From positions 1 to 28,029 of IMG/VR virus record IMGVR_UViG_3300005056_000023: DNA of 28,029 nt; one strand, given 5' to 3'. Origin of the DNA: a virus. The notes under the pieces were generated by a model. It saw only the letters and a list, made by a program, of their open reading frames with translations, did no database searches and had not been told where the DNA came from. Shown here in pieces: positions 2,582 to 14,677 of the stretch; within the stretch, counting starts at the first letter, position 1; every line of letters starts with the position of its first letter. The position numbers and the translations under genes were made by a program.

Positions 2582-2590
2582 TCATTAGAG

Positions 2591-2704
2591 TTGGCTGCGG
2601 TATGCGGTCGGCGTTTTCTACATGCAATTATAGGATGGCAACCCTAAGGAAATATCGGCTTGATGAGCATGGAAACGTCAATGATGGCCGCATACCGGAG
2701 CCAA
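2591..2704 (+). repeat. Long-range inverted repeat (17-base arms, 16 matches)
   Basis: The arms are TTGGCTGCGGTATGCGG (2591-2607) and CCGCATACCGGAGCCAA (2688-2704). They are reverse complements except for one position, separated by 80 bases. In RNA they would pair as a long stem over a loop that contains the start of a 26-codon ORF. The spacer 2582-2740 has no established gene. I do not recognise the element; see findings. Confidence 0.7.
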
Positions 2705-2715
2705 TTCAGCTCTGA
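2635..2715 (+). CDS. Possible 26-residue peptide inside inverted repeat
   Basis: A short ORF from ATG 2635 to TGA 2713-2715, encoding a polar peptide that ends EPIQL. It has no homologue I recognise. Its upstream TAGGA nearly touches the start codon, so the ribosome site is poor. Its last third is formed by the right arm of the inverted repeat, and its stop falls inside the 2703-2718 palindrome. It may be chance or a leader peptide. Confidence 0.25.
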   Translation: MATLRKYRLDEHGNVNDGRIPEPIQL

Positions 2716-2718
2716 ATT
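2703..2718. promoter_or_regulatory. Short palindrome, possible protein-binding site
   Basis: AATTCAG, CT, CTGAATT: two perfect 7-base arms with a 2-base centre, directly after the right arm of the larger inverted repeat and 22 bases before ATG 2741. The tight centre makes a DNA-binding dimer site more natural than an RNA hairpin. No matching copy was noticed elsewhere in the window, so operator function is speculative. Confidence 0.3.
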
Positions 2719-2740
2719 ATTAACTTAACAGGAAAATGTA

Positions 2741-3151
2741 ATGAAAAAGTTTAAAAGCCACAAAGAAGTAACCGCCACACCAATGAACCACCTTGATTAT
2801 AATGTTTATCGAGGCTGGGAATTGCCGTCAGATGAAAATGGCGAAGATGACGGTTATCTTGTCGAGTATCTTGATGGGGGTGAATCAAACCACCCTGACC
2901 ACAAAGGCTATATTTCATGGTCACCAAAGCGCCAGTTTGATGAGGGTTATACTAGAGTACTTCCCGATTATCAGCAGCGTGTTGTTGATGAAATGAATGA
3001 ATTGGCTGATAAGACCAATAAACTCATGGCTTTTTTGAAAAGCGAAAAGTCTCAAGAGCTTGCTGCCGAAGATTTCAAACTTATGAAAGATCAGTGGATT
3101 GCTATGGGTTCTTATGTCTTTATCCTAAGTTCTCGAATCGATAGATTTTAG
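2741..3151 (+). CDS. Small phage accessory protein with crAss001_48-related C-terminal domain
   Basis: A 136-residue protein with two parts. Residues about 10-70 carry a pattern frequent in phage small proteins: YRGWELP, an acidic turn, GYLVEYLDGG, then GYISWSPK. Residues about 75-136 form a helical hairpin starting YQQRVVDEMNELADK and ending SSRIDRF, the pattern of domains annotated as crAss001_48-related. Neither half has an established biochemical role that I can name. The start follows AGGAAAATGTA at short spacing. It lies between the inverted-repeat spacer and the lysis genes. Such accessory genes often serve host takeover or counter-defence, but that is a guess here. Confidence 0.65.
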   Translation: MKKFKSHKEVTATPMNHLDYNVYRGWELPSDENGEDDGYLVEYLDGGESNHPDHKGYISWSPKRQFDEGYTRVLPDYQQRVVDEMNELADKTNKLMAFLKSEKSQELAAEDFKLMKDQWIAMGSYVFILSSRIDRF

Positions 3152-3360: not shown

Positions 3361-3787
3361 TCTAACTACGAACATATCAAGACATGAGCTGGAATGTAAT
3401 TGTGGTGAATGCGACGTTAACATTCAGGACCACGAGCCAATAATTCAAGTTGTTCAGAATGTGTGTGATGTTTTTGCGGAGATTTTTGGCGTAAAAAAAG
3501 TTGTCTTGATTATTACTAGTCCCGCTCGGTGTTACGAGTACAACCGGATACCGGTAGCCGAGGGCGGGCCAGGGAGTGACGACCAAAGCCAGCACCCTCG
3601 CTGTAACGCCATAGATTTCATAATCCTTGTTAATGGCAAGCAGGTAAACCCGGAAAGGATTCATGCCTATCTTTGCACTCGACACCCCCATAAATATGGA
3701 TTTGGTCTGTATAAGGGCAAGGGTAAAAGTAAGGGTTTCAATCATGCCGATACTCGTGCCGCTGAAGCAAGATGGGTTGCTTCGTGA
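3353..3787 (+). CDS. Endolysin, peptidase M15 family
   Basis: A 144-residue protein matching the Peptidase_M15_3/M15A pattern: a Zn peptidase that cuts the peptide stem or cross-links of peptidoglycan. SRHELECNCGEC (9-20) is the usual N-terminal signature. SQHPRCNAID (79-88) supplies His81 and Asp88, and FNHADTR (129-135) supplies His131, together the expected metal ligands. The protein ends at RW near residue 141, as this family usually does. There is no signal peptide, so it needs the holin encoded immediately downstream (16-base overlap). One oddity is that the usual Gly of the S-x-H-x-x-G-x-A-x-D motif is Cys84. Confidence 0.88.
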   Translation: MGNLTTNISRHELECNCGECDVNIQDHEPIIQVVQNVCDVFAEIFGVKKVVLIITSPARCYEYNRIPVAEGGPGSDDQSQHPRCNAIDFIILVNGKQVNPERIHAYLCTRHPHKYGFGLYKGKGKSKGFNHADTRAAEARWVAS

Positions 3788-4356
3788 GCTGGGCGAAGGT
3801 TGGGAACTTTCTAAAAAGCTCACTTCCCATTTTGGGAACTGCTATAGGAGGTCCGGCAGGTGGTATAGCTGGCAAGTTGATATCGGTTGCCCTTGGTACT
3901 GATGGCAGCCCCGAATCAGCTCTCAAGGTGCTGCAACAGGATCCTGATGCAATACTGAAATACAAGCTGGCAGAACTTGAGACTAATCGTGACGTGGTTG
4001 TTGCTAGCTATGAAGCTCAACAAGCAATAATTGAAACTGTTAACCAGACAATTCGCAGCGAGCATAATTCACATGACCCATTTGTTAGGCGTTGGCGCCC
4101 ATTCTACGGCTATGCTATCGCAATATCGTGGTTTATCCAGATGACCGGATTTACCATCATGTTTGTTTACGTCGCTATAACTGAACCAAAATCCTTGGCG
4201 GCACTTGTACAACAATTCGCAGTATTGTCAGGATCATTACTGACTCTTTGGGGTGTTGCCTTGGCTGTTTTGGGGGTGAGCGTTCACAAAAGAAGTCAGG
4301 ACAAACAACAAAACCTTGAATCTAATGGTTTCTTTAATAAACTGATGGGTAAGTAA
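3772..4356 (+). CDS. Holin of the 3TM (GTA holin) type
   Basis: A 194-residue protein with a Gly/Ala-rich hydrophobic N-terminal segment (about 17-42), an amphipathic helical middle, then D-P-F-V-R-R-W-R-P at 102-110 and two strong membrane helices (about 112-136 and 143-170). The W-R-P motif before the helix pair is characteristic of the 3TM holin family first described for gene transfer agents. It would form lesions in the inner membrane and release the endolysin encoded just upstream. ATG 3772 has a weak ribosome site; GTG 3784 is a possible alternative. The tail (171-194) is polar and Lys/Gln-rich. Confidence 0.82.
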   Translation: MGCFVSWAKVGNFLKSSLPILGTAIGGPAGGIAGKLISVALGTDGSPESALKVLQQDPDAILKYKLAELETNRDVVVASYEAQQAIIETVNQTIRSEHNSHDPFVRRWRPFYGYAIAISWFIQMTGFTIMFVYVAITEPKSLAALVQQFAVLSGSLLTLWGVALAVLGVSVHKRSQDKQQNLESNGFFNKLMGK

Positions 4357-14528: not shown

Positions 14529-14584
14529 ATTTGCACAGAAATCAAACTATTATCTAAACATATCCCACCGATACCCTCATTGAG

Positions 14585-14633
14585 GCCGGAAAAAAAGGAT
14601 GATCTTTGTTCTACGATCAAACCATTTTCCGGC
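14585..14633 (+). other. Nested inverted repeat before the capsid gene
   Basis: Outer arms GCCGGAAAA (14585-14593) and TTTTCCGGC (14625-14633) are perfect over 9 bases. Inner arms TGATC (14600-14604) and GATCA (14615-14619) sit inside with a 10-base loop. No T-run follows on either strand, so a terminator is unlikely. A double-stranded RNA of this kind suits an RNase III processing site or a regulatory stem. In T7 the corresponding gap holds the strong capsid promoter. Confidence 0.65.
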
Positions 14634-14677
14634 ACCTTGATCTAGAGCCATACTAGATACTCAAAGAGGGACATAAA

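Follow-up and report, generated by a model that had tools for sequence, protein, structure and literature searches.

REP-like intergenic hairpins, which stabilise the 3' ends of messages in bacterial operons, are stable hairpins that directly follow a stop codon. The same placement is found at the locus described here, a gap between two accessory (moron) genes in a 28,029-nt window (the whole stretch of DNA that was analysed) of a podovirus-like phage; unlike REP-like elements, however, the window hairpin is not repeated in its genome. Leader-peptide attenuators of the hisL and pheM type have a short ORF overlapping one hairpin arm, and so does this gap, but it has no ribosome-binding site for that ORF, no regulatory codon run and no downstream U-tract terminator. 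RNase III sites are a known kind of element in the transcripts of phages lambda, T7 and T3 (PMC5371410). The window hairpin resembles those of the T7 early region, lambda and T3: it is long, imperfect and intergenic, lies on the coding strand, forms about two helical turns in the predicted fold, and is placed between a stop codon and the next ribosome-binding site. It differs from them in being a single hairpin and not a series, and in belonging to a different phage type. A sequence-only reading of this DNA had called the symmetry of the gap unexplained by known elements, which was too strong, long intergenic hairpins being known in phage mRNAs.

A long hairpin fills the gap between two accessory genes

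The gap and its flanks contain the following features:
2126-2581, + strand: upstream accessory gene for a protein of 151 aa, without significant relatives
2576-2726, + strand: whole gapped imperfect palindrome, ~150 bp, gapped alignment score 45
2588-2607, + strand: left arm of the core hairpin, 18/20 complementary to the right arm
2608-2679, + strand: inner helices and apical loop, with predicted pairs 2610-2617/2672-2679 and 2621-2625/2667-2671 (fold and pair probabilities)
2635-2715, + strand: mini-ORF, 26 codons, probably not a gene
2688-2707, + strand: right arm of the core hairpin
2703-2718, no strand assigned: 7+2+7 palindrome AATTCAG-CT-CTGAATT, which in part forms the outer right arm of the long hairpin
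2729-2733, + strand: ACAGGAAAATGTAATG, Shine-Dalgarno region for the following gene, not included in the hairpin
2741-3151, + strand: downstream accessory gene for a protein of 136 aa; its N-terminal domain occurs joined to Tad2-like domains in other phages, and its C-terminal domain is crAss001_48-related (PF21825)

The 17-base arms described by the sequence-only reading were found exactly so, 2591-2607 and 2688-2704 being complementary at 16 of 17 positions across an 80-base spacer, and they can be extended to 20 nt on each side (2588-2607/2688-2707, 18 of 20 paired). A gapped alignment of the left half of the gap to the reverse complement of the right half matched ~50 nt (2576-~2625 vs ~2667-2726, score 45), with small insertions and deletions in the arms. 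The resulting palindrome begins at the last codon of ORF 2126-2581 and stops just short of the next gene's ribosome-binding site. By this alignment, the several symmetries first noticed in the gap are real but make up one structure, not three: the intergenic symmetry between the two accessory genes is a real, unusually long hairpin. The 7+7 palindrome reported over the stop codon of the mini-ORF is likewise present, and overlaps the TGA at 2713-2715, but it is mostly the outer right arm and not a separate element. Alone, it folds weakly (-2.6 kcal/mol for 2700-2725), and 2710-2726 are able to pair with 2576-2590, a 5-nt bulge separating the outer from the core helices in the gapped alignment.

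The predicted RNA fold of the gap reaches -60.1 kcal/mol, where shuffled sequences average -39.4 (z of -5.2), the strongest fold among the window's intergenic gaps. By prediction, the core helix at 2592-2609/2686-2703 is almost certain to form (pair probabilities of at least 0.9), and 2588-2609/2686-2707 are predicted to form 21 pairs with one mismatch, about two helical turns. A fold that includes the outer helix (2576-2590/2710-2726) is predicted at -58.9 kcal/mol, vs -60.1 kcal/mol for the unconstrained minimum, so that the outer helix may or may not form. The palindrome leaves the ribosome-binding site of the 2741 gene free.

Within the 28-kb window, this is the only 16/17 inverted repeat with a spacer of at most 150 bases. 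Such a repeat was present in 7 of 1000 Markov-simulated 28-kb windows, and a gapped palindrome score of at least 45 was reached in ~5 of 758 simulated windows. In other phage loci, 7 repeats of the 16/17 type were counted in ~495 kb, 3 of which are one palindromic contig end in L020. The inverted repeat is thus beyond chance expectation, uncommon though not extraordinary, and its exact placement from stop codon to ribosome-binding site adds weight to the case against chance. The L020 contig end (1-250) is itself a perfect long palindrome, probably an assembly artefact.

Relatives of the locus and searches for further copies

All assigned genes around the hairpin lie on the + strand. The fragment has genes for RecE-like and DnaQ-like exonucleases, for lysis (an M15 endolysin and a holin) and for a terminase, a head-tail adaptor, a major head protein and the tail; the terminase shares 52% identity with that of Burkholderia phage BcepC6B. 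The contig sits in a metagenome-assembled genome labelled Rhodobacteraceae, a bin label that need not be the host.

Only one close syntenic relative was found (L030; terminase 90% identical), which aligns with the window up to 2118 and then again from 3165. Between these positions, L030 has an SSB-like gene in place of ORF 2126-2581, as read from the translations, and ORF 2741-3151 is absent; no comparable hairpin was found at the corresponding site of L030. In both the window and L030, ACAGGAAAATGTAATG forms the ribosome-binding site/start region of the next gene. Because L030 keeps the outer neighbours, differs between them and does without the hairpin, the hairpin belongs to a variable, exchanged accessory block. 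The sequence-only reading had held that relatives with the same neighbours but neither pairing nor ORF would speak against a functional element; L030 does keep the outer neighbours without either, but it is also without both flanking genes, and the comparison therefore bears on that point only in part.

No Rfam covariance-model match at gathering score was found anywhere in the window, and at a relaxed threshold nothing appeared in the hairpin. Nucleotide searches of phages and plasmids gave no related hairpin, and no further copy was found in the phage's own metagenome bin, nor any hairpin of this kind in 296 genomes of the bin's family and 398 of its phylum. A covariance model made from the single hairpin sequence, run against 51 sources and 299 genomes, had no hit but its own sequence; it scores the + strand at 145.9 bits vs 32.8 bits for the - strand, a difference that is no evidence of strand since the + strand was the model's own input. 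The paired-arm pattern had 3 matches in viral contigs, with unrelated flanks, and these were judged to be chance. The covariance and paired-arm searches suggested earlier as a way to relatives thus yielded no related hairpin. An integron attC site was also considered, and rejected by eye, its core motifs facing the wrong way.

Possible functions of the hairpin

We propose, with a probability of about 0.42, that the hairpin is a cis-acting element of the RNase III-type processing or 3'-end stabilising kind in a polycistronic phage mRNA. The gap between the two accessory genes would then appear as one long imperfect hairpin in a + strand polycistronic transcript, folding once the gap is transcribed. 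It would present about two turns of double-stranded RNA to RNase III, or block 3'-to-5' exonucleases, and the upstream message would thereby be uncoupled from that of the 2741 gene. The inverted repeat, its improbability, its exact fit to the gap and its predicted stability come from the sequence itself; we infer that the gap is transcribed and the hairpin folded in vivo, that the message is cleaved or protected, and that expression is affected. The predicted pairing provides the helix of about two turns in a transcript that is expected of an RNase III site, and because the sequence rules for such sites are loose, any two-turn helix qualifies. Against the processing or stabilising role, we count these loose rules, that no second natural copy was found in which covariation would show, and that the nearest syntenic relative, L030, does without the hairpin. 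If functional, a hairpin between messages illustrates one way for a phage to accommodate a newly gained accessory gene in an operon; the hairpin alone is a single unsupported instance and leaves the general picture unchanged. A bolder version, in which an undescribed phage regulatory RNA of ~150 nt travels with the accessory genes and controls the downstream counter-defence-type gene, appears very improbable.

The hairpin might instead be a scar of recombination or insertion, an inverted duplication or MITE-like hairpin that arrived with the accessory block and has no present function. This would suit a surrounding block that is wholly different from that of L030, with the SSB-like gene there instead, and the small indels in the arms, as in a decaying palindrome. 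Nevertheless, we consider a scar unlikely: the hairpin is single-copy in the window, the bin and the sampled genomes, with no other copy in the phage, the 296 family and 398 phylum genomes, plasmids or other phages; no target-site duplication was seen by eye; and the ends are tidy, between stop codon and ribosome-binding site. That the symmetry arose by chance or under weak selection, is functionless and was picked because the reader sought symmetry is also rather improbable. About 0.7% of random windows as large as this one hold an equally good repeat, and the other phage loci have their 7 in ~495 kb, but chance would also have to account for the two additional in-register helices, the filling of the whole gap and the fold z close to -5. 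A site acting at the DNA level (a protein-bound operator or other dyad, or a cruciform) finds some support in the 7+7 dyad just upstream of the ribosome-binding site. It is doubtful all the same, with no promoter-like site in the gap, an 80-base spacer that is long for an operator, and neither the dyad nor the arms having a second copy in the window.

Two further readings concern the RNA itself. A trans-acting small RNA would profit from the compact, stable fold, and 21 nt of the loop (2646-2666) are identical or nearly so to the coding sequence of sigma-factor region 2 in some bacteria (L063; L060). This likeness, however, lies in sense orientation on the transcribed strand, and with an E-value of ~5e-4 per genome over the 398 genomes searched it is explicable by chance and was set aside; the gap also has no promoter and no U-tract terminator for a separate RNA, and we regard a small RNA as very unlikely. 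Least credible is an attenuator controlled by translation of the mini-ORF, which we hardly believe. The 26-codon ORF said to contain the right arm exists, covering the loop as well as that arm, and an in-frame ATG at 2602, inside the left arm, lengthens it to 37 codons, but its length is at chance level: when the gap is shuffled at constant composition, 24% of the resulting sequences contain an ATG ORF of at least 26 codons. On reading the sequence, no Shine-Dalgarno sequence was found at a workable distance from the ATG at 2602 or that at 2635, so that a translated leader is not apparent, and searches of phages, viral contigs and genomes for relatives of the peptide matched only the window's own contig. 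On these grounds the mini-ORF was rejected as a gene, and the small gene within the hairpin looks accidental. There is also no terminator with a proper U-tract to control: what comes after the long hairpin is AGCTCTGAATTATTAAC, with no T run, so that the hairpin does not have the form of an intrinsic terminator. Only a weak sub-hairpin at 2590-2612 (-12.5 kcal/mol for 2588-2622) is terminator-like, being followed by GTTTTC, and it could compete with the long fold; because it precedes the right arm, however, the long fold would form too late to prevent it. Among the roles offered by the sequence-only reading (regulatory RNA, mini-ORF attenuator or operator), a structured RNA or operator-type element is thus supported by statistics and position, and the attenuator is not.

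The downstream protein family and other hairpins

The protein encoded at 2741-3151 has an N-terminal domain of ~70 residues in common with those encoded at L007 4974-5486 and L043 167-655. In L007 and L043 its fusion partner is a Tad2-like domain (PF11195, Thoeris anti-defence), and in the window it is the crAss001_48-related domain. The three proteins form a domain-swapping accessory family that may be tied to counter-defence. In L007, a different long hairpin lies just before the Tad2-like fusion gene (upstream of 4992). Kin of the window hairpin were sought before other genes of the downstream family, and the strong folds seen at L007, L043, L011 and L006 are all unlike it, those of L043 being plain terminators.

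Other folds were seen within the window. A strong fold (z about -4) that includes a CCGGAAAA / TTTTCCGG stem is also predicted for the gap preceding the major head protein gene (14529-14677). The predicted local folding energy is lowest, at -59.8 kcal/mol for 150 nt, around the place where the endolysin and holin genes overlap (3711-3910). Upstream of ORF 2126, a small hairpin at 2096-2111 (GCCCAC-TACG-GTGGGC) is terminator-like on the minus strand, and it is kept in L030 as GCCCGC-TGCG-GTGGGC despite the different gene that follows.
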